A stretch of DNA of 35,494 nucleotides from positions 1 to 35,494 of the forward strand of contig JAQXQC010000074.1 in the NCBI GenBank assembly GCA_029100965.1, in the 5' to 3' direction. Shown here in pieces: positions 3,349-17,695 of this stretch. A program made the position numbers and the translations under genes. This DNA is from Bacilli bacterium (lineage in GTDB: Bacteria > Bacillota_I > Bacilli_A > RF39 > UBA660). How positions within the stretch are numbered: position 1 is the first letter of the stretch; the number at the start of each line of letters is the position of its first letter. The notes under the pieces were generated by a model. That model worked only from the letters and a program-made list of their open reading frames with translations. It made no database searches and was not told where the DNA came from.

Positions 3349-3467
3349 CATGTAAGTTTACAAAAATAACTATTTTTTATGTAGAAAAAATACTTTATTG
3401 ATTATTTTTAACTATTTTATGATAAAATGATATTGAAAAATAGATAATATAGTTAAGGAGATTGATT

Positions 3468-5222
3468 ATGTTTAAAGAAATTACTGCAATAAGTAAAAAT
3501 TTTGCTTGGGTAAAAATGGAAGGAACTACTACTGATGATTTGTTAAATATGAATGTAGTTTTTGAAGAAAATGAAAAAAAAATATTAGGTGAAGTAGATG
3601 AAATTGATAATGGACAAATTAAAGTTAGTTTTTTGGGAGAATTCATTAATGGAAAATTTCAAGGTGGTATTATTCGTAAGCCAAGTTTAACTGCCAAAGT
3701 AAGAATTATTAATCAGGATGAATTAGGGGAATTAGTAGGTAATAATAATAAAAAAAGTATGACTTTGGGATTATCGCCGTTATACGGTGACTGTCCAATA
3801 AAAATAGATATAGATGATATGTGGAGTAATCATAATGCTTTTTTTGGTAATACTGGTAGCGGAAAAACTTATGGAGTTTCTAGATTCATTCAAAACTTAT
3901 TTAACATGTCTGATAAAATTCCTTTTAACAGTAATATTTTTATTTTTAATAATACTGATGAATATGATAATGCATTTCGAAATATTGGAAATTATAATAT
4001 TAATTTTAACTATAAAATGTACTCAATTAGTGGCGAGGGAGGAAATAAAATACAATTACCTCTATGGTTGTTATCCGTTGATGACTACGCTAATTTATTA
4101 GATGTTACAGCTTATTCTCAACTGGCAATTATTGAAAAAATGCTAAGTTTAGTATCTGTATTTGCTCGAAATGATGATAATTCAAAAAAATACAAAAATC
4201 ATTTAATTGCTAGTGCTATCGTTTCAGTTCTATATACTAACCAAACTGCTGGTCGAATTCGTGATCAAATATTTTCTATTTTAGAAAATTGCAATACTGA
4301 TGAACTAAATCTAAATGTTGATGTTCCAGGAATTGGTTATACTAGACAATTTAGAAAATGTTTTGAAATAGATAGTAAAGGAGAATTTTCAGAGAGAATA
4401 CTTATCGCAGAATACATTCAACAATTTATAGATAATACTACAAAATGGAATGAAGATTATATTCCTATCTATTTTACTCTTGATGATTTAGAAGTTGCCT
4501 TAAATTTTGCACTTATTTCTGAAGGATTATTGTTAAATGAAAAAACCTCTTCTGAAGCGATGGCACTCAAAGTTAAATTACACACTATTAATAATAGTAG
4601 TTATAAAAATTTATTTAGTTGTGATAAATTTTGTACTTCATCTGATTTTATAACTAATATTATTATGATTGGTTCTAATAAAAGGGCACAAATTATTAAT
4701 TTTGTATTAGAAGATATTGATGATCGTTTTGCTAAAGCAATTGTCAAAGTTTATTGCAGAATTATTTTTAAGTTCAGTAAAAGCCTAAGAGATAGAGGTG
4801 CGATGCCTATTCATTTAATGTTAGAAGAAGCACATCGATATGTACAAAAGGATTATGATGTAGAAATTCTTGGATATAATATTTTTGAAAGAATTGCAAA
4901 AGAGGGCCGTAAGTTTGGAGTAATTATGGACCTTATTACTCAACGTCCAACTGAACTTAGTGAAACTGTTATTTCACAATGTACAAACTTTTTAATTTTT
5001 AAAATTACACATCCTAGTGATTTAGATTATATAAAAAAGATGGTTCCCAATATAAGTAATGATGTTATAGAAAAACAAAAAACTTTACAAGCTGGTACTT
5101 GTGTTGCTTTTGGAAAAATGATGAAAATCCCTATGATTGTTAAAATGCAATTACCTAATCCTGAACCACATAGTTCAAATGCTTCGATATATGATAAGTG
5201 GATGGTTGAAATAAACAAATAA
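3468..5222 (+). CDS. HerA-type ATPase, DNA translocase/helicase family
   Basis: Probable hexameric P-loop DNA translocase of the HerA/FtsK superfamily, 584 residues. Residues 1-90 form a beta-rich N-terminal region like the HAS-barrel of HerA. Walker A is GNTGSGKT at 127-134. A Walker B segment, IHLMLEEAHRYV, lies near 447-456. The HerA-typical TQRPTELSETVISQCTNFLIF stretch lies near 490-510. The ATG at 3468 is chosen because AAGGAG (3455-3460) lies 7 bases before it; an in-frame TTG at 3462 would be only one base from that site. The archaeal partner nuclease NurA, and the SIR2 or DUF4297 partners of bacterial defence HerA proteins, are not encoded beside it. Its role here is unknown: repair, origin processing or defence are all possible. 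It stands alone, divergent from rpmH and ended by a hairpin before dnaA. Confidence 0.85.
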   Translation: MFKEITAISKNFAWVKMEGTTTDDLLNMNVVFEENEKKILGEVDEIDNGQIKVSFLGEFINGKFQGGIIRKPSLTAKVRIINQDELGELVGNNNKKSMTLGLSPLYGDCPIKIDIDDMWSNHNAFFGNTGSGKTYGVSRFIQNLFNMSDKIPFNSNIFIFNNTDEYDNAFRNIGNYNINFNYKMYSISGEGGNKIQLPLWLLSVDDYANLLDVTAYSQLAIIEKMLSLVSVFARNDDNSKKYKNHLIASAIVSVLYTNQTAGRIRDQIFSILENCNTDELNLNVDVPGIGYTRQFRKCFEIDSKGEFSERILIAEYIQQFIDNTTKWNEDYIPIYFTLDDLEVALNFALISEGLLLNEKTSSEAMALKVKLHTINNSSYKNLFSCDKFCTSSDFITNIIMIGSNKRAQIINFVLEDIDDRFAKAIVKVYCRIIFKFSKSLRDRGAMPIHLMLEEAHRYVQKDYDVEILGYNIFERIAKEGRKFGVIMDLITQRPTELSETVISQCTNFLIFKITHPSDLDYIKKMVPNISNDVIEKQKTLQAGTCVAFGKMMKIPMIVKMQLPNPEPHSSNASIYDKWMVEINK

Positions 5223-5355: not shown

Positions 5356-5509
5356 GTAATTCTTTATAGAATATAGAATTTAAAATTTTTTCCACATTTA
5401 TCAACTTTTTGAATTTTTTTCCACAATTGCTTGTTTAAAACATCTTGTGGAAAACTGTGGAAAAATTATTATAAATCAATAAAAACAATGCTTTTTTAGT
5501 TGTGGATAA
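5324..5509. other. oriC: Replication origin part 1: DnaA-box cluster upstream of dnaA
   Basis: Within 190 bases there are TTTTCCACA at 5388-5396 and 5417-5425 (plus), TTTTCCACA on the minus strand at 5446-5454 and 5456-5464, and a perfect TTATCCACA on the minus strand at 5501-5509. Two weaker boxes lie in the hairpin at 5324-5332 and 5339-5347. The first pair and the later three face each other. The position directly before dnaA corresponds to the upstream half of the bipartite origin of Bacilli. The rest of 5223-5605 is AT-rich with no gene. Confidence 0.85.
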
Positions 5510-5605
5510 CTACTGGATATTGCAATTTTTGTTACTTAATAATGAATTTCTAGAAAAAAAAAAAGATTTATGTTAATATTGTTAATGAACGTGGGAGGGA
5601 TTAGA

Positions 5606-7003
5606 ATGGATATTGATGAATTATGGAAAAATTTTCTAGAAATAATAAAAAATAATATTTCTTCTTTATCATATCAAACTTGGTTTTGTGGCACAAAACT
5701 TGTATCAATTTGCAATAATACTGCTATTATTGTTGTTCCAATGCCCGTTCATAAAAAGCATTTAATGGAAAATTATTTAGATGTTATTGAAGAAAAATTT
5801 AAACAATTAACTGGCACAGTTTTTGAATTTGAATTTATGTTGGATGATGAATGGGAACAAAAAAAGGATGAATTTATAAAAAATGATGTTGATGCTAAAA
5901 AATTAGAAAATAGTGCCTCTCAAAGCAACATAGAAATTTCTCCTCAAATTTTCGAAGATGCCAACTTAAATAAAGATTATAGTTTTGATAATTTTATCGT
6001 TGGAAATTCTAATCGCTTTGCATTTACCGCCTCTTTAGCTGTTGCAGAAAAACCAGGTAAAGCTTATAATCCTTTATTTTTATACGGGAAAAGTGGGTTA
6101 GGAAAAACCCATTTAATGCATTCCATTGGAAATTATATATTAGAGCATACAAATTTAAAAGTTTTATATATTTCTAGTGATAAATTTGTTAATGATTTTA
6201 TTAATGCTGTTAGAAATAATGACAAAAATAATTTTATGAAAATAGATAATTTTAAAGCTAAATATAGAAACATTGATGTCTTAATGATTGATGATATACA
6301 ATTTTTAGGAAATGCTACTAAAGGGCAAGAAGAGTTTTTCCATACTTTTAATGAACTTTATAATGAAAATAAACAGATAATCATTGCTTCTGACCGTTCT
6401 GTTGATGATTTAAAAATGCTAGAAAATAGATTACTTACTAGATTTAATTGGGGATTAACTGCAAATATAACTCCTCCTGATTTTGAATTAAGAATGAATA
6501 TTTTAGAGAGGAAGATAGCTCATCAAGAATCTGCCAAAGATGTTCCTAAAGAAGTTATTGAATATATTGCTAATAATTTTGCTTCTGATGTTAGACAGTT
6601 AGAGGGGGCAATTACTAGAGTTTTTGCTTATGCTTTAATGATGAATAAAGGAGTTGTTGACTTAGATACTGCAGTTGATGCTTTAAAAGATCAACTTACC
6701 GATAGAAGCGTTTATAAAAACGATGTTCATCGAATTCAGACTGTTGTTTGTGATTATTTTAAAATTACCTTAGATGATATCAAAGGGAAAAAACGGAGTC
6801 AAAATATTAATTACCCTAGACAAGTTGCTATTTATTTATGTAGGACTTTGGCTAATGAATCTTTTCCTAAAATAGGAACTTACTTTGGTGGAAGAGATCA
6901 TTCAACAATTATGAGTTCTTATCAAAAAATTCAAAAAGAACTATTAGTAAATGAACAGTTGAAAGTAGTTATAAAAGAATTAAAACAGCAATTATCTCCT
7001 TAA
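5606..7003 (+). CDS. dnaA: Chromosomal replication initiator DnaA
   Basis: Origin-binding AAA+ ATPase that opens the replication origin, 465 residues. Domain I is at 1-80, a short variable linker at about 85-120, and the AAA+ domain from about 125 with Walker A GKSGLGKT at 161-168 and Walker B VLMIDDIQFL. The C-terminal DNA-binding domain carries the signature GGRDHSTIMSSYQKI. The start is ATG 5606 because GGGAGG (5593-5598) lies 7 bases upstream; a longer frame from 5570 would run through the ribosome-binding site. The gene is flanked by DnaA-box clusters on both sides, which suggests autoregulation as well as origin function. Confidence 0.98.
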   Translation: MDIDELWKNFLEIIKNNISSLSYQTWFCGTKLVSICNNTAIIVVPMPVHKKHLMENYLDVIEEKFKQLTGTVFEFEFMLDDEWEQKKDEFIKNDVDAKKLENSASQSNIEISPQIFEDANLNKDYSFDNFIVGNSNRFAFTASLAVAEKPGKAYNPLFLYGKSGLGKTHLMHSIGNYILEHTNLKVLYISSDKFVNDFINAVRNNDKNNFMKIDNFKAKYRNIDVLMIDDIQFLGNATKGQEEFFHTFNELYNENKQIIIASDRSVDDLKMLENRLLTRFNWGLTANITPPDFELRMNILERKIAHQESAKDVPKEVIEYIANNFASDVRQLEGAITRVFAYALMMNKGVVDLDTAVDALKDQLTDRSVYKNDVHRIQTVVCDYFKITLDDIKGKKRSQNINYPRQVAIYLCRTLANESFPKIGTYFGGRDHSTIMSSYQKIQKELLVNEQLKVVIKELKQQLSP

Positions 7004-7014
7004 TTGGGGAATTA

Positions 7015-7104
7015 TGTGGATAATTATTTATATTTCCACAATAGGTGTTGAAAAGAAATATCTTATTTCAAAAGGAATATACATAGTTTTCCACAGTTTC
7101 CACA
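7015..7104. other. oriC: Replication origin part 2: DnaA boxes between dnaA and dnaN
   Basis: Four boxes lie in 90 bases: perfect TTATCCACA on the minus strand at 7015-7023, then ATTTCCACA at 7032-7040, TTTTCCACA at 7087-7095 and GTTTCCACA at 7096-7104 on the plus strand. The last two are adjacent and point toward the AT-rich stretch that follows. This is the arrangement of the unwinding half of the B. subtilis origin. Confidence 0.85.
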
Positions 7105-8373: not shown

Positions 8374-8396
8374 TGATTTTCATTTAGTGAAAATCA
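8374..8396 (+). repeat. Hairpin just upstream of the comK ribosome-binding site
   Basis: A perfect 9-bp inverted repeat, TGATTTTCA and TGAAAATCA, with a 5-base loop. It ends directly next to the GAAGGGGG ribosome-binding site. It could be an operator for a dimeric regulator or a structure in the leader RNA affecting translation. No T-run follows, so it is not a terminator. Confidence 0.6.
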
Positions 8397-8410
8397 GAAG
8401 GGGGATAAGT

Positions 8411-8899
8411 ATGTTGGAAAATTATGAAATTAATGATGAAACTTTAGCAATAGTTCCATATGAATGTGGAAAATCAAAGGTTTATGAGTATGATGAGGAA
8501 TTTATAGTTAATATGATTCCTTTGACAATTATTAAAAATAGTTGTTTGTTTTTTGGTTCATCATTTGAAGGAAGGAGGGATGCATGTAAAAATATTATTG
8601 GAATTGATATGAAAGTACCAATTCTTGTAGAAGAGAGCAGAAATATAATATTTTTTCCTGTTTCTAGTTGTATTAATAAAAATAGTATTTGGATATCTTA
8701 TCAAAATTTATTAAAATACTCTAAAAATAGTTTAAGTACTTCTAATTTGTATTTTAAAAATAAAAAAAATATTCAATTACCCGTTAAATATAATTTAATT
8801 GATAATCAAGTTATTCGATGTATTAAGTTAGATACTCTTTTACTTAAGAGACAAAAACTTATCAGAAGTGTTAGTACTAACGAAAATATAGAGATGTAG
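8411..8899 (+). CDS. comK: ComK-family competence transcription factor
   Basis: Homologue of ComK, the DNA-binding master activator of competence genes in Bacillus. The 162-residue protein is collinear with B. subtilis ComK over nearly its whole length. The conserved SCLFFGSSFEGRR aligns with the SCRFFGSSYAGRK block, PILVEESRNIIFFP with PIMVDPSNQIFLFP, and IQLPVKYNLIDNQV with the C-terminal MELPISYNSFENQV. The ATG at 8411 is used because AGAAGGGGG (8396-8404) precedes it; an upstream in-frame GTG would include that site. It occupies the place where most Bacilli have yaaA, between dnaN and recF, and has its own candidate promoter and terminator. No other com genes are visible. The comparison is from memory of the ComK sequence, not a search. 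Confidence 0.87.
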   Translation: MLENYEINDETLAIVPYECGKSKVYEYDEEFIVNMIPLTIIKNSCLFFGSSFEGRRDACKNIIGIDMKVPILVEESRNIIFFPVSSCINKNSIWISYQNLLKYSKNSLSTSNLYFKNKKNIQLPVKYNLIDNQVIRCIKLDTLLLKRQKLIRSVSTNENIEM

Positions 8900-12198: not shown

Positions 12199-14640
12199 AT
12201 GCAAGAAGAAAGAGATAGAAAAGTATCTGTTAATATAGTAGAAGAAATGAGGACTTCTTTCCTTGATTATTCAATGAGTGTAATAGTAGCAAGAGCAATT
12301 CCCGATGTTAGAGATGGTTTAAAACCAGTTCATCGAAGAGTGTTATATACTCTATATGAGGAAGGTATGACACCTGATAAAAAATATCAAAAAAGTGCTA
12401 ATGCTGTTGGAGCTGTTATGGGTCATTATCATCCACATGGGGATAGTGCTATTTATGATACTATGGTAAGAATGGCTCAAGATTTTACTTATAGACATTG
12501 TTTAGTTGATGGTCATGGAAATTTTGGATCTATAGATGGTGATGGTGCAGCAGCTAGTCGTTATACGGAAGCGAGATTGGCTAAAATATCTATGGAACTA
12601 TTGAGAGATTTAAATAAAGATACTGTTGATTTTTCAGAAAATTATGATGGACAACGGAAAGAACCAGTAGTTTTACCAAGTAGATTTCCAAATATCTTAG
12701 TAAATGGTAATATGGGAATTGCAGTTGGAATGGCCACAAATATTCCTCCTCATAATTTAGGAGAGGTAATTGATGGTTGTATAGCATATATAGATAATCC
12801 AGATATTACTGTTTCTCAATTAATGGAGTTTATTAAAGGTCCTGATTTTCCAACGTATGGAGTAATTTTAGGAAACAGTGGGATAAAAAAAGCGTACGAA
12901 ACTGGTAGAGGAACTATTACTATTAGAGGAAGAGTTGAAATAGTTGAAAAAGCTGGAAAGTCTCATATTGTTATAACTGAATTACCTTATCAAGTAAATA
13001 AAAAAGCTTTGATTACTAGAATTGGTGAACTTGTTAGAGATAAAGTATTAGATGGTATTTCTAATTTAAGTGATGAATCTGCTTTAGAAGGAATTAAAAT
13101 TGTTATTGATGTAAAAAAAGATGCGAATGTAAATGTTGTTTTGAATAATTTATATAAGCATACTCAATTGCAAACGTCATATGGTATAAATTTTTTGATG
13201 TTAGTGGATGGTCGTCCTAGAACTTTAGATTTGAAAACAATTTTAGAGAAATATATTGAACATCAACGGCATGTAATATACCGTAGATGTCAATTTGAAT
13301 TGAAAAAATATAATGCAAGATTACATATCTTAAGTGGTTTAAAAATTTCTTTAGATAATATTGATAGGGTAATAAAGATTATTAGAGAGTCAGAGACTGA
13401 TGAAATTGCTCAAGCTGAGTTGATATCTAATTTTGGTTTATCAGAAATTCAAGCACAAGCTATATTAGAGATGCGTTTGAAAAGATTGACAGGTATGGAA
13501 AAGTCTAAGATAGAAGAAGAAATTGCTGAATTATTAAAATTAATTCGTGAATTAGAAGAAATTTTGGCTTCTGAAGAAAAAATTGATAATGTAGTAAAGA
13601 AAGAAATGTTAGAGATTAAAGAAAAATACAATGACGAGAGAAGAACTTACATAGATATGACTGCAATTGAATATATAAAGGATGAATCTTTGATACCTGT
13701 GGAAAATGTAGTACTTACTCTTACTAATAAGGGATATATCAAGAGATTGCCAGTGGATTCTTATAAAACTCAACATAGAGGCGGAGTAGGGGTAAAAGGA
13801 ATGGCAACAAATGAGGAAGATTTTGTTGAAAATATTATTAATACTACGACACATGATTATGTTTTATTTTTCACTACTAAAGGAAGAGTGTTTAGGATGA
13901 AAGGTTATGAAATTCCTGAATTTTCTAGACAATCTAAGGGATTACCAATTATTAATTTATTAAATTTAGAAAAAGGAGAAAAAGTTACTTCTTTGTTGAA
14001 AATAGATAGAAATGATGATTGTAAATTTTTGATTTTTGCAACTAAAAATGGATTAGTAAAGAAATCAGATATTTCTGAATTTGATAGCATTAGGAATAAT
14101 GGAAAGAAGGCTATTACGTTAAAAGATGATGATGAATTGATTTCTGTAAAAAAGACTAATGGTGATAATGAAATATTGATGGCTTCATCTAACGGAAGAA
14201 TGGTAAGATTTTGTGAAGATTCATTAAGAATAATGGGAAGAAGTGCTTCTGGTGTTAAAGGTATTAATTTAGATGGTGGTACTTTAATTAATATGGATGT
14301 TGTGGAGAATAATCAACAAGTATTAGTAATTACAAAGAATGGTTATGGAAAAAAGACTCCAATAGAAGATTATAGAATTACAAACCGTGCTGGAAAAGGT
14401 GTTAAAACTGTTAATATTACTGAAAAGACTGGAGATATTGTATCATTTGAAGTAATTTCTTCTGATTGTGGAAAAGATATTATGATAGTAACAAATGAAG
14501 GTATTATTATTCGTATAGATGCCTCACAAATTTCCACAATGAGCAGGGTTACTCAGGGAGTTAAATTGATAAATTTAAAAGATAATCAATTTGTTAGTTC
14601 TGTTGCTGTAATTGATAAATTAGAGGAAAGTGTTGAATAA
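12199..14640 (+). CDS. gyrA: DNA gyrase subunit A
   Basis: DNA-cleaving subunit of gyrase, 813 residues. The catalytic tyrosine is Tyr122 in RYTEAR, at the same number as in E. coli. The quinolone-resistance region reads GDSAIYD at 81-87, with Ser83 and Asp87 unchanged from the sensitive form. A coiled-coil arm covers about 370-480. The C-terminal beta-pinwheel begins near 500, with a GyrA box of the form QHRGGVG. That favours gyrase over ParC, as does the gyrB partner 20 bases upstream. The ribosome-binding site is AGGAGG. Transcription probably ends at the hairpin at 14837-14897. Confidence 0.97.
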   Translation: MQEERDRKVSVNIVEEMRTSFLDYSMSVIVARAIPDVRDGLKPVHRRVLYTLYEEGMTPDKKYQKSANAVGAVMGHYHPHGDSAIYDTMVRMAQDFTYRHCLVDGHGNFGSIDGDGAAASRYTEARLAKISMELLRDLNKDTVDFSENYDGQRKEPVVLPSRFPNILVNGNMGIAVGMATNIPPHNLGEVIDGCIAYIDNPDITVSQLMEFIKGPDFPTYGVILGNSGIKKAYETGRGTITIRGRVEIVEKAGKSHIVITELPYQVNKKALITRIGELVRDKVLDGISNLSDESALEGIKIVIDVKKDANVNVVLNNLYKHTQLQTSYGINFLMLVDGRPRTLDLKTILEKYIEHQRHVIYRRCQFELKKYNARLHILSGLKISLDNIDRVIKIIRESETDEIAQAELISNFGLSEIQAQAILEMRLKRLTGMEKSKIEEEIAELLKLIRELEEILASEEKIDNVVKKEMLEIKEKYNDERRTYIDMTAIEYIKDESLIPVENVVLTLTNKGYIKRLPVDSYKTQHRGGVGVKGMATNEEDFVENIINTTTHDYVLFFTTKGRVFRMKGYEIPEFSRQSKGLPIINLLNLEKGEKVTSLLKIDRNDDCKFLIFATKNGLVKKSDISEFDSIRNNGKKAITLKDDDELISVKKTNGDNEILMASSNGRMVRFCEDSLRIMGRSASGVKGINLDGGTLINMDVVENNQQVLVITKNGYGKKTPIEDYRITNRAGKGVKTVNITEKTGDIVSFEVISSDCGKDIMIVTNEGIIIRIDASQISTMSRVTQGVKLINLKDNQFVSSVAVIDKLEESVE

Positions 14641-14653
14641 GAATATAGCTTTA

Positions 14654-14669
14654 TGTTTCACGTGAAACA
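14654..14669. other. parS: parS site 1
   Basis: TGTTTCACGTGAAACA, a perfect 16-bp palindrome matching the conserved bacterial ParB/Spo0J-binding site. TTTTCCACA follows at 14678-14686, 8 bases away. It starts 14 bases after the gyrA stop. Confidence 0.93.
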
Positions 14670-14836
14670 TAGAACTGTTTTCCACATAGTATAAATATTA
14701 TTTCTTAGATTTTTAAAGAAACTTGAAAAAAATGGTTCTTCGAAATTCGATGGACCCAGCAAAATGTATTCGTTATAATTATCTTAAACTAAAATTGATG
14801 TTTTATAATATTTCTAATAATTACTTTACGGTTTAG

Positions 14837-14897
14837 GTTTTCTCAATTTTGAATAATTAAGAAAAATAGTTTTTCAAAATGAGAAAACTATTTTTTT
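14837..14897 (+). terminator. Terminator of the gyrase transcript
   Basis: GTTTTCTCAATTTTGAA (14837-14853) pairs with TTCAAAATGAGAAAAC (14873-14888), with one bulged A and a 19-base loop, then a seven-T run (14891-14897). It lies 200 bases after gyrA and just before parS site 2. Confidence 0.7.
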
Positions 14898-14898
14898 A

Positions 14899-14914
14899 TG
14901 TTTCACGTGGAACA
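14899..14914. other. parS: parS site 2
   Basis: TGTTTCACGTGGAACA, one mismatch pair from a perfect palindrome and within the known parS consensus. TTTTCCACA follows at 14919-14927, 4 bases away. Confidence 0.93.
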
Positions 14915-15318
14915 TAAATTTTCCACACTATTAAAATTTAGATATTAATATTAAGTATTGTTTGTTGTGAAAAAACTTTTGTTTTGAATTGTATGAATAT
15001 CTTATTAAATTAAAATTTTTAGTGGTAACAATTATAATTATAAAATTAATACCTTAAAGTTACTTTATATAAAAATTTGTAAATTTTGTTTATAATTTAT
15101 ATTTTTTTAGTTATACAGAGATAATAACTTAATTGTTAAAAATTTTAATATCTATCCAGCTAGAATAATACAATATCAACAGTTCTTTCATTTTGATGAG
15201 TTATTAACATATTTGAAAAAAAGTTAATTGACTTTTTTGATTAAAACACGATTTTTAATATAAATCCAAAAGAATCCGTTTTAATTTTTTGCATATGGAT
15301 ATTTATATAACTTTTTTA

Positions 15319-15334
15319 TGTTCCACGTGAAACA
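15319..15334. other. parS: parS site 3
   Basis: TGTTCCACGTGAAACA, identical to the parS consensus reported for B. subtilis. TTGTCCACA follows at 15341-15349, 6 bases away. Confidence 0.94.
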
Positions 15335-15373
15335 TAAAAGTTGTCCACAGTATGTTGATTTATAAAATTTCCA

Positions 15374-15389
15374 TGTTTCACGTGGAACA
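15374..15389. other. parS: parS site 4
   Basis: TGTTTCACGTGGAACA. The symmetry extends outward by CCA and TGG to 15371-15392. TTTTCCACA follows at 15395-15403, 5 bases away. Confidence 0.93.
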
Positions 15390-15598
15390 TGGATTTTTCC
15401 ACAATATATAATTTTTTTATAAGATTGATTTTATAATAAAATTTTGAAAAAGCATAATAGTTAATTATTTATCATTTTAAATAGAAAAAGTATTTTAAAT
15501 TTAATTTATATTATTAATAAAAAATAATATAGAGATATTATATTAAGTAATTTAATTTTTTTAGAATAATATTTCCACAATCTTTTTTTTTATTGTAT

Positions 15599-15768
15599 GG
15601 CAATCTCTTAAAAATTTTCTAACCTCAAATATTATCAAAATTATAGCTATTTAATTAAATTTTAGATAATTTTAATTTATGTGGGGTCAATTTTAGATAA
15701 ATTTTTAATATTAGGACAGATATTTTTTGTTGAAAATTAGTGCTAAAATTTTTTAAAGCGATTGCCTT
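15599..15768. repeat. Inverted-repeat pair, possible small mobile-element remnant
   Basis: GGCAATCTCTTAAAAATTTT at 15599-15618 recurs inverted near 15749-15768 as GGCAATCGCTTTAAAAAATT. A third copy, GGCAATCGCTTAAAAATTG, lies on the minus strand near 119-137 beside the MscS gene. The enclosed 130 bases are non-coding. No target duplication is clear, so the nature of the repeat is unknown. Confidence 0.4.
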
Positions 15769-15778
15769 ATTTTTTTTA

Positions 15779-15807
15779 TTGATTTTTTTTTTATTTTGTT
15801 TTATAAT
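15779..15807 (+). promoter_or_regulatory. Promoter of the SRP RNA gene
   Basis: TTGATT (15779-15784), 17 bases, perfect TATAAT (15802-15807). The predicted transcription start seven bases further is G15814, exactly where the RNA's closing helix begins. Confidence 0.8.
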
Positions 15808-15813
15808 GATAAC

Positions 15814-15894
15814 GATGCAATAGTATTTATTTGGAATTAAGTCAGGATTGGAAAATAGCAGCTTTAACAAATTTTACTATGTGCATCTTTTTTT
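15814..15894 (+). ncRNA. ffs: Signal recognition particle RNA, short 4.5S-like form
   Basis: RNA core of the signal recognition particle, which with Ffh targets nascent membrane proteins. The invariant helix-8 motif is complete: GTCAGG, an ATT/AAT stem, the GGAA tetraloop, then AGCAGC (15841-15862). Flanking sequence folds into one rod: GATGCA (15814-15819) pairs with TGCATC (15882-15887), and ATAGTA with TACTAT inside that. A seven-T run (15888-15894) ends it. The mature RNA would be about 75-80 nt, without the Alu domain found in the roughly 270-nt RNA of most Bacilli. That resembles mycoplasma and Gram-negative forms. It lies directly upstream of dnaX, as scr does in B. subtilis. Confidence 0.93.
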
Positions 15895-15977
15895 CGTATT
15901 TATTTAATTTCATATATTAATTTTATGCACAAACAAATGTTCTTTTTTATTTTTAGATGGAATTTTTGAGTTAGATA

Positions 15978-15986
15978 TGTTATAAT
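15978..15986 (+). promoter_or_regulatory. Extended -10 promoter of dnaX
   Basis: TGTTATAAT with TATAAT at 15981-15986. It lies 29 bases before the TTG start. No convincing -35 is visible. Confidence 0.55.
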
Positions 15987-16015
15987 ATTATTTGTATAAA
16001 GGTGGTGATTAGTAG

Positions 16016-17695
16016 TTGGCATATTTAGCATTATATAGAAAATATAGACCTAAAAATTTTAGTGATTTAGTTGGTCAAAATGAAATTGTTAACATTATTA
16101 AAAATGAAATTTTAAACAATAAATTATCTCATGCTTATTTATTTTCAGGTCCTCGTGGTACAGGTAAAACATCGACTGCTAAAATTATTGCAAGGATGAT
16201 TAATTGTGATAAATTAGGAGATGATGGTATTCCGTGTGGCAAATGTGAAAGTTGTTTACATTTTTCGGAAAATAGTGATATTATTGAAATTGATGCAGCT
16301 TCTAATAATGGGGTTGATGAAATTCGTGAATTAAGAGATAAAGTTAATTTAGTCCCTACTTATGGAAAATATAAGGTGTATATCATTGATGAAGTTCACA
16401 TGTTAACTACTCAAGCTTTTAATGCTTTATTAAAAACTTTGGAAGAACCACCATCTCATGTGATATTTATTTTAGCTACTACAGAGTTTTTTAAGATACC
16501 AGAAACGATTGTTTCTCGTTGTCAAAAGTTTCAATTTTCTAAATTTTCTTTAGATGATATAGTGAATAGATTACAATATATTTCTCAACAGGAAAATATA
16601 AATGTTTCTAATGAAGTTTTATCTGAAATTGCTCGTTTATCTGATGGAGGACTTAGAGATGCAATTAATATGTTAGATCAATTGTCATCATTTAGTGATA
16701 GTGGAGTGGATTTAGAAGATGTTTATCGATTAAATGGTGTTGTTTCTTATATTGATTTTTATCATTTGTTATCTTATATGAATGATTGTGATTGTAAGGA
16801 AATAATTGATTTTTTTGAAGAAATTGATAGAAATGGTAAAGATTTTGGGAGGTTTATAGAAGATTTTATATCTTTTATCAGTGAGATTTTAGTTTATTCT
16901 GTTGTGGGTAGTTTTAGGTCTAATGTTCCAGAAAAGAATGAATTAATAAAGAAAATATCTGATTTTTTTTCAGAAAAAAATTTATATAATTTTATTTTGT
17001 TTTTAAATGATTTGTTTTTTAAAATGAAATCTTCGTCTTTTATAAAAATTTTAGTGAGTACAGAATTTATTAAATTTTCACGATTAACATTATGTGATAG
17101 TAATAAATCATTTAAAAATAATCTTCAAGATAACGCAGAAAGTTCTAATATAATTGCGTTAGAAGTGAAAAAGTTAGCTGAAAGAAAACAAAATGATTCA
17201 ATATCAAATGAAGAAAGAATTATTAGAATTAATAATGCTTTTTCATCGGCTTCTAAGAATAATAAGGAAAAATTTTTAGAAGAATGGAATGATTTTAAAA
17301 ATTATGTAGTAAATAATCAAAAATTTTTAAATATTTATAGTTTATTAAATGATATTGAGGTTTTGGTAGTAGGAGATAAAAATATAATATTTTTAGCTAG
17401 TTATGATTCTATATTATTAAGACTTTTTGAAAATATTTCTATTATAGAACAGGCACTAAATGATTTTTATAATAATGAATATAAAATTATTTTCTTATCT
17501 GTTGAACAGTGGAATAATGAGAAAAAAAAATATATATCTAATATCAAAAAAGGAATAAAATATAATTATGTTTCTGGTGAGAGTGATACTTTAGAAAGTA
17601 AATGTGTTTATAAAAAATTAAATAATAGTGAAATAGATGATGATGTAGATAAAATTACTTCTATTTTGGGGGAAAGTGTTATTTCATTTGAATAA
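16016..17695 (+). CDS. dnaX: DNA polymerase III subunit gamma/tau
   Basis: Clamp-loader ATPase subunit of the replicase, 559 residues. The start is a TTG at 16016 with a strong AAGGTGGTGAT site, giving the expected N-terminus MAYLALYRKYRP. Walker A is GPRGTGKT at 45-52, zinc-binding cysteines are at 64, 74, 77 and 80, the DEVHML Walker B lies near residue 122, and the TIVSRC sensor motif lies near 165. The C-terminal third is the less conserved tau region. A shorter gamma form by frameshifting cannot be judged from the sequence. It is followed by ybaB and recR, the conserved Firmicute order. Confidence 0.96.
   Translation: MAYLALYRKYRPKNFSDLVGQNEIVNIIKNEILNNKLSHAYLFSGPRGTGKTSTAKIIARMINCDKLGDDGIPCGKCESCLHFSENSDIIEIDAASNNGVDEIRELRDKVNLVPTYGKYKVYIIDEVHMLTTQAFNALLKTLEEPPSHVIFILATTEFFKIPETIVSRCQKFQFSKFSLDDIVNRLQYISQQENINVSNEVLSEIARLSDGGLRDAINMLDQLSSFSDSGVDLEDVYRLNGVVSYIDFYHLLSYMNDCDCKEIIDFFEEIDRNGKDFGRFIEDFISFISEILVYSVVGSFRSNVPEKNELIKKISDFFSEKNLYNFILFLNDLFFKMKSSSFIKILVSTEFIKFSRLTLCDSNKSFKNNLQDNAESSNIIALEVKKLAERKQNDSISNEERIIRINNAFSSASKNNKEKFLEEWNDFKNYVVNNQKFLNIYSLLNDIEVLVVGDKNIIFLASYDSILLRLFENISIIEQALNDFYNNEYKIIFLSVEQWNNEKKKYISNIKKGIKYNYVSGESDTLESKCVYKKLNNSEIDDDVDKITSILGESVISFE

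Follow-up and report, generated by a model that had tools for sequence, protein, structure and literature searches.

Between gyrA and dnaX of a Bacilli bacterium lie four parS sites, each followed on the same side by a motif that resembles a DnaA box. Does this pairing arise by chance, is the partner a site for DnaA, and what could such a site do beside parS? The window, by which we mean the whole stretch of 35,494 nucleotides that was analysed, is contig C74 of a 93-contig, 1.37-Mb genome and has a GC content of 26%. Its genes run jag-yidC-rnpA on the minus strand and then dnaA, dnaN, a comK-like gene, recF, gyrB and gyrA; beyond gyrA there is a 1,375-bp intergenic region followed by dnaX, ybaB and recR (names other than dnaA, comK and recF were read from translations). 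The genes that frame the parS region are given here.

5570..7003, plus strand: dnaA (Pfam Bac_DnaA and Bac_DnaA_C)
12199..14640, plus strand: gyrA, upstream neighbour of the parS region, with relatives in all 117 genera of the family sample
15804..15902, plus strand: small bacterial SRP RNA (scRNA), between the parS region and dnaX (Rfam RF00169, 59.2 bits)
16016..17695, plus strand: dnaX, downstream neighbour of the parS region

Two further genes lie near the origin. A ComK-family gene is found between dnaN and recF (window 8387-8899; Pfam 1.2e-40), with ORFs in the same place in other species of the genus, and a gene for a HerA/DUF87-type ATPase is found between rnpA and dnaA (window 3462-5222).

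The parS sites, their partners and a remaining box-like site in the same intergenic region are arranged as follows.

14654..14669, no strand assigned: parS 1, TGTTTCACGTGAAACA, exact match
14678..14686, plus strand: DnaA-box-like partner 1, TTTTCCACA, gap 8 from parS 1
14899..14914, no strand assigned: parS 2, TGTTTCACGTGGAACA, exact match
14919..14927, plus strand: DnaA-box-like partner 2, TTTTCCACA, gap 4 from parS 2
15319..15334, no strand assigned: parS 3, TGTTCCACGTGAAACA, exact match
15341..15349, plus strand: DnaA-box-like partner 3, TTGTCCACA, gap 6 from parS 3
15374..15389, no strand assigned: parS 4, TGTTTCACGTGGAACA, exact match
15395..15403, plus strand: DnaA-box-like partner 4, TTTTCCACA, gap 5 from parS 4
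15571..15579, plus strand: fifth box-like site, ATTTCCACA, unpaired

An earlier note on this DNA had described four parS palindromes with same-side partners at gaps of 8, 4, 6 and 5 bases, and we recovered all four pairs at these positions, with no mismatch in any parS and with exactly these gaps. Every partner lies on the gyrA-distal side of its parS, three as TTTTCCACA and one as TTGTCCACA. The same note had counted five TCCACA sites pointing in one direction, four of them the partners, and this also held: the gyrA-dnaX intergenic region (14641-16015) contains five, all on the plus strand and none on the minus strand, the fifth being ATTTCCACA at 15571. Exact parS sites number four genome-wide, all within window 14654-15403, and the next best match has two mismatches. 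Since the genome holds no further exact parS, a parS lacking its partner, which had been proposed as a refuting case, does not arise.

The proximity of parS and box was scored, as the earlier note had suggested, against a null in which the parS sites were kept fixed and the remaining sequence was dinucleotide-shuffled. Outward partners on the same side within 9 bp were expected 0.003 times and observed four times, and 0/2000 shuffles reached four, so chance is rejected as the source of the pairing. WTDTCCACA occurs 123 times in the 1.37-Mb genome, approximately once per 22 kb per orientation, and the chance for each parS and side of a box in a given orientation within 10 positions is ~5e-4. 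Base composition and ubiquity of boxes are rejected by this count of 123, and AT-richness alone by the unpaired parS of other AT-rich genera of the family.

Exact parS sites were found in five of the seven genomes of the genus. Pairs are kept in three of the four other parS-bearing species, at 13 of 14 sites (17 of 18 counting the window), but are absent from the fourth, G001, where 0/3 exact parS are paired; conservation in relatives, on which the earlier note had staked its claim, is thus borne out in part. In G003, 4/4 parS are paired in the contig leading into dnaX and so are 2/2 in the homologous copy that follows gyrA, probably from a second strain; in G004 5/6 are paired and in G005 4/4, and all paired boxes of these three species lie on the same side as those of the window. 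G002 and G006, in which no parS and no close gyrA were found, are uninformative on pairing. The pair is dispensable, because G001 has none and one of the six G004 sites is unpaired.

Across 19 paired units of the genus the gap ranges from 2 to 8 bp (median 4). The 60 bp flanking the units show no mutual similarity within species (window, G003, G004 and G005), blastn matches between species are islands of 34-41 bp centred on the units, and the positions of the units relative to gyrA vary between species. Because the flanks are unrelated and the islands are the size of the unit, the parS-box pair, a unit of ~35 bp, has been kept while its surroundings turned over. These unrelated flanks rule out recent local duplication in the window, G003, G004 and G005, while it holds for two loci of a second clade described below (G101 and L158). 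The genus units may nevertheless be old copies of one unit, in which case the sites are not fully independent events.

Two of the related species showed further peculiarities. In G001 the array has been replaced: L018 7332-7880 carries six sites resembling parS (three of them exact, the others with AACT at their end) ~110 bp apart with no DnaA-box partners, in what is the sole unpaired parS-bearing species of the genus. The gyrA beside the paired parS of G003 (L240 / L020, G003:C141) is only 70% identical to that of the window and its GyrA groups away from the genus in a GyrA tree, whereas its DnaA is 83% identical to the window's, which may reflect mixed strains or a replaced gyrA.

Beyond the genus we surveyed 117 genera of the family, one genome each, of which 94 have parS. 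Leaving aside the window's genus and that of G101, both of which gave hits, the remaining 115 genera hold 378 parS with one composite match (G020, gap 18), and in a class sample of 395 genomes the pair was found in the window's genome alone; the pairing is therefore rejected as a feature common to the entire family or class. A scan of ~85,000 species, restricted to TTWTCCACA lying 1-9 bp from an exact parS and possibly missing the window's own genome, returned 100 stretches, the first 80 of which were read as loci. Among these 80 of 100, the loci with several pairs that took in every or almost every exact parS were those of the window's genus (L150, L178 and L199) and a second set (L160, L173, L175, L158 and L179, the last being G101), which L198 and L165 join once parS copies with one mismatch are counted.

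In this second clade the order is again gyrA, parS and a box pointing away, the same polarity as in the genus (the gyrA side of L158 was taken from L241). The gap is 0-2 bp, with one at 11, the box is mostly TTATCCACA, and boxes adjoin one-mismatch parS copies too. In the GyrA tree the clade and the window's genus are far apart and separated by unpaired genera, so pairing originated at least twice; the unpaired G020 lies beside the second clade, and therefore a loss or two gains occurred there. In G101 three copies share a downstream flank, and at one site a Noc-binding site (NBS), parS and a DnaA box stand together. L158:4852-5737 is a tandem array of ~109-bp units, each a Noc site, a parS and a DnaA box (TAATCCACA/TTATCCACA), in which some parS carry one or more mismatches. 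At L160, L173, L175, L179, L165 and L198 a TGT lies ~5 bp past the box, often resembling a weak inverted second DnaA box.

The scan also returned matches from more distant bacteria. Twelve Treponema loci among the first 80 of 100 (L122, L133, L134, L145, L146, L153, L156, L170, L176, L177, L180 and L184) have parS near TTWTCCACA with gaps of 1-9, mostly downstream of gyrA; as they usually involve one of several parS and are of mixed polarity, they were not counted as the same module. In Ignavibacteria (L124, L135, L152 and L181) the distance between a parS and its box stays at 9 across several records, and in Deferribacteraceae and similar bacteria (Seleniivibrio, Denitrovibrio; L137, L151, L155, L157 and L188) it stays at 5-6. 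These single pairs were likewise not counted as the same, being mostly one site among several and of mixed polarity.

Whether the partner is a DnaA box can be judged against the box clusters of the same chromosome, which served as a yardstick.

5388..5509, both orientations: oriC box cluster upstream of dnaA, TTTTCCACA four times and TTATCCACA once
7015..7104, no strand assigned: second box cluster, dnaA-dnaN intergenic, TTATCCACA, ATTTCCACA, TTTTCCACA and GTTTCCACA

Across the genomes compared, the box clusters that flank dnaA, one upstream and the other before dnaN, contain TTTTCCACA, TTATCCACA, ATTTCCACA, ATATCCACA and GTTTCCACA. All 40 paired units share the core TCCACA, although this core was the search key, so it is the agreement with oriC letters that is real evidence: the letters ahead of CCACA in the partners (TTTT, ATTT, TTGT, ATAT and ATGT, and TTAT in the second clade) are those of oriC boxes in the same genomes. 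Co-variation at the third letter neither helps nor hurts, with oriC boxes mixed between TTTT and TTAT in both clades. The window's DnaA has DNA-binding domain IV. The partner, which matches the DnaA boxes of its own oriC, is thus a putative DnaA site. An oriC or DnaA-box cluster was rejected as the identity of the window boxes themselves, since these are spaced 54-422 bp apart in one orientation, ~8 kb past the end of dnaA, with the clusters elsewhere (5388-5509 and 7015-7104).

In this family, parS has another neighbour, the NBS (ATTTCCCGGGAAAT), which lies within 30 bp of parS in 23/117 genera, for example in L023 (G116), L053 (G020), L036 (G074) and G065; several genera have it at many of their parS, each time on the same side. 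We found no ATTTCCCGGGAAAT in the seven genomes of the window's genus, against 1-20 per genus in the 12 others that were checked, and the Noc/NBS-coupled parS of the family was rejected as the window's identity, there being no ATTTCCCGGGAAAT within 30 bp of its parS. The Noc gene of the genus still stands behind rsmG and retains a divergent ParB_N, but HTH_ParB was not recognisable in 5/5 of its proteins tested and was present in three Noc of other genera, so that it is apparently a nucleoid occlusion protein without DNA binding. The Noc loci of the genus are on contig C54 of the window's genome (L248:1726-3231) and in L112, L113, L115 and L117 (also L114 and L119); the GERR motif is altered to GNKR, GNRR, GNEN or GMDK, and in several species an Asn-rich linker stands in place of HTH_ParB. 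A shifted Noc site was rejected for the partner, given the lack of HTH_ParB in the genus Noc, the absence of NBS and the NBS and box together at one parS of G101. Loss of DNA binding by Noc was not supported as the cause of pairing, since G001 is unpaired despite its reduced Noc, and the paired G101 has a complete one.

A parA-parB pair is intact on another contig, C30, and its ParB has complete ParB_N and HTH_ParB, so that at the level of sequence the genome carries what a Caulobacter-type centromere would need: consensus parS with ParB and ParA encoded. The gyrA-dnaX intergenic region is, as part of our best explanation, probably the chromosomal centromere of this bacterium. We conclude from these comparisons that the parS-DnaA-box module is real and, judging by what has been kept, is selected.

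As to its function, we lean, with confidence only just on the positive side, towards a coupling of initiation and segregation by DnaA placed where ParB loads. Each ParB loading site would carry its own DnaA box a few bases off on the origin-distal side, and box-bound DnaA would adjoin the ParB clamp during loading at parS. The segrosome could then respond directly to the level or nucleotide state of DnaA, and DnaA in turn to ParB acting with ParA/Soj; initiation and origin segregation would be tied at the DNA, as with DnaA at the Caulobacter centromere. In favour of this coupling are the pairing and its excess, the island conservation, the second clade, the polarity, and the intact ParA, ParB and DnaA genes, while we infer from these that DnaA binds the boxes and that its binding would affect ParB or segregation. 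Once loaded at parS, ParB leaves the site as a sliding CTP clamp, whose movement is blocked in vitro on the side where a protein is tightly bound next to parS (PMC7053999). A direct coupler is plausible because it would join ParB clamp sliding, the control of DnaA by Soj and the DnaA site of Caulobacter. The gaps in the genus, 2-8 bp, are spread over most of a helical turn and so speak against a rigid DnaA-ParB complex and for adjacency, and the common polarity favours a direction-dependent role, albeit from few independent events.

A broader picture, which we regard as possible but doubtful, is that the parS region of the family is an exchangeable hub in which parS, NBS and DnaA box come in repeated modules, that boxes were added at least twice on the origin-distal side, and that DnaA sets the direction of ParB loading or spreading. 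The same polarity would also suit DnaA as a mere obstacle that stops clamps sliding away from the origin and keeps ParB dense toward gyrA and oriC. Paired boxes are gyrA-distal throughout both clades, a bound protein halts ParB sliding one-sidedly in vitro (PMC7053999), and loose gaps of 0-8 bp suit an obstacle better than a rigid complex; however, DnaA is reported to turn over quickly at B. subtilis origin regions (PMC5319796) and would make a poor wall, and two lineages sharing one polarity count for little on their own. We therefore consider a directional roadblock unlikely.

B. subtilis DnaA-box clusters and E. coli datA are the comparison systems for titration, in which the boxes would form a near-origin reservoir that lowers free DnaA once replicated, the adjacent ParB clearing them. 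With five boxes in 1.4 kb, ~9 kb from oriC, the layout would suit such a reservoir; deletion of the B. subtilis box clusters leads to early initiation (PMC5295017), and ParB2 of Vibrio chromosome II counteracts titration of RctB at rctA (PMC4468827). Yet four boxes add little to the genome's 123 WTDTCCACA, and titration in its plain version predicts no link to each parS, which makes it quite improbable.

We give a poor chance to the partner being the site of another protein that shares DnaA-box letters, or an enlarged ParB site. DnaA binding is read from the letters, and Noc, another ParB-type protein, is altered in the same genus; against this, the varying partner letters match oriC boxes, ParB-type sites are palindromic and the partner is not, and the genus Noc has no recognisable DNA-binding domain while that of G101 in the second clade is complete. 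That the unit has no function, a single chance parS and box having spread through the array by recombination, is very improbable, for although the G101 copies share their downstream flank and L158 repeats in tandem every ~109 bp, only the unit was kept, amid unrelated flanks, in the window, G003, G004 and G005, and pairing has at least two origins and boxes beside degenerate parS in the second clade.

The coupling of initiation to segregation that we favour has relatives among known systems, and how the two processes are tied is an open question with few examples at the level of DNA (Caulobacter parS and Vibrio rctA/parS2). Paired species, the unpaired G001 and the unpaired sister genera offer natural comparisons, and the unit is a short fragment for joint in vitro work on DnaA, ParB-CTP and ParA. 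Mera, Kalogeraki and Shapiro (2014) reportedly identified a DnaA site in the parS locus of Caulobacter crescentus. Two sources describe this DnaA-binding site as required for DnaA-triggered centromere movement (PMC4468827, PMC6399470). The likeness is that of a DnaA box next to a chromosomal ParABS parS near the origin, here at 4/4 sites with gaps of 4-8, and in Caulobacter segnis (L195) TTATCCACA lies 9 bp from one parS, between two parS. However, Caulobacter has one box at a centromere near parAB, whereas the window has one box per parS with parAB on another contig, all boxes on one side, in the gyrA-dnaX region and in Bacilli; box function is demonstrated in Caulobacter and presumed from sequence here. 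As the pair is absent from the 395 class genomes sampled, apart from the window's own, and from nearly all other family genera, the arrangement is convergent with that of Caulobacter.

On Vibrio cholerae chromosome II, RctB and ParB2 share rctA/parS2, with crosstalk (PMC4468827, PMC6399470), so that an initiator site and a ParB site again stand side by side, but the initiator is RctB and not DnaA, the chromosome is secondary, and the site represses replication by titrating RctB. In Bacillus subtilis, the assembly of DnaA is regulated by ParA/Soj, itself under the control of ParB (PMC5295017), which links the same ParA/ParB and DnaA families functionally, although there the link is between proteins at oriC. 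DnaA-box clusters and datA likewise place boxes outside oriC, but these are not tied one by one to parS. The earlier note had thought a composite parS and DnaA-box module undescribed: the module itself is supported by 3/4 species, the second clade and the oriC letters, and our literature search turned up no account from Bacilli of parS with a DnaA box, whereas Caulobacter and Vibrio provide precedents. An initiator site within a centromere is thus already known, and what is new is its one-to-one multiplication, its fixed polarity, its occurrence in Bacilli and its convergence.
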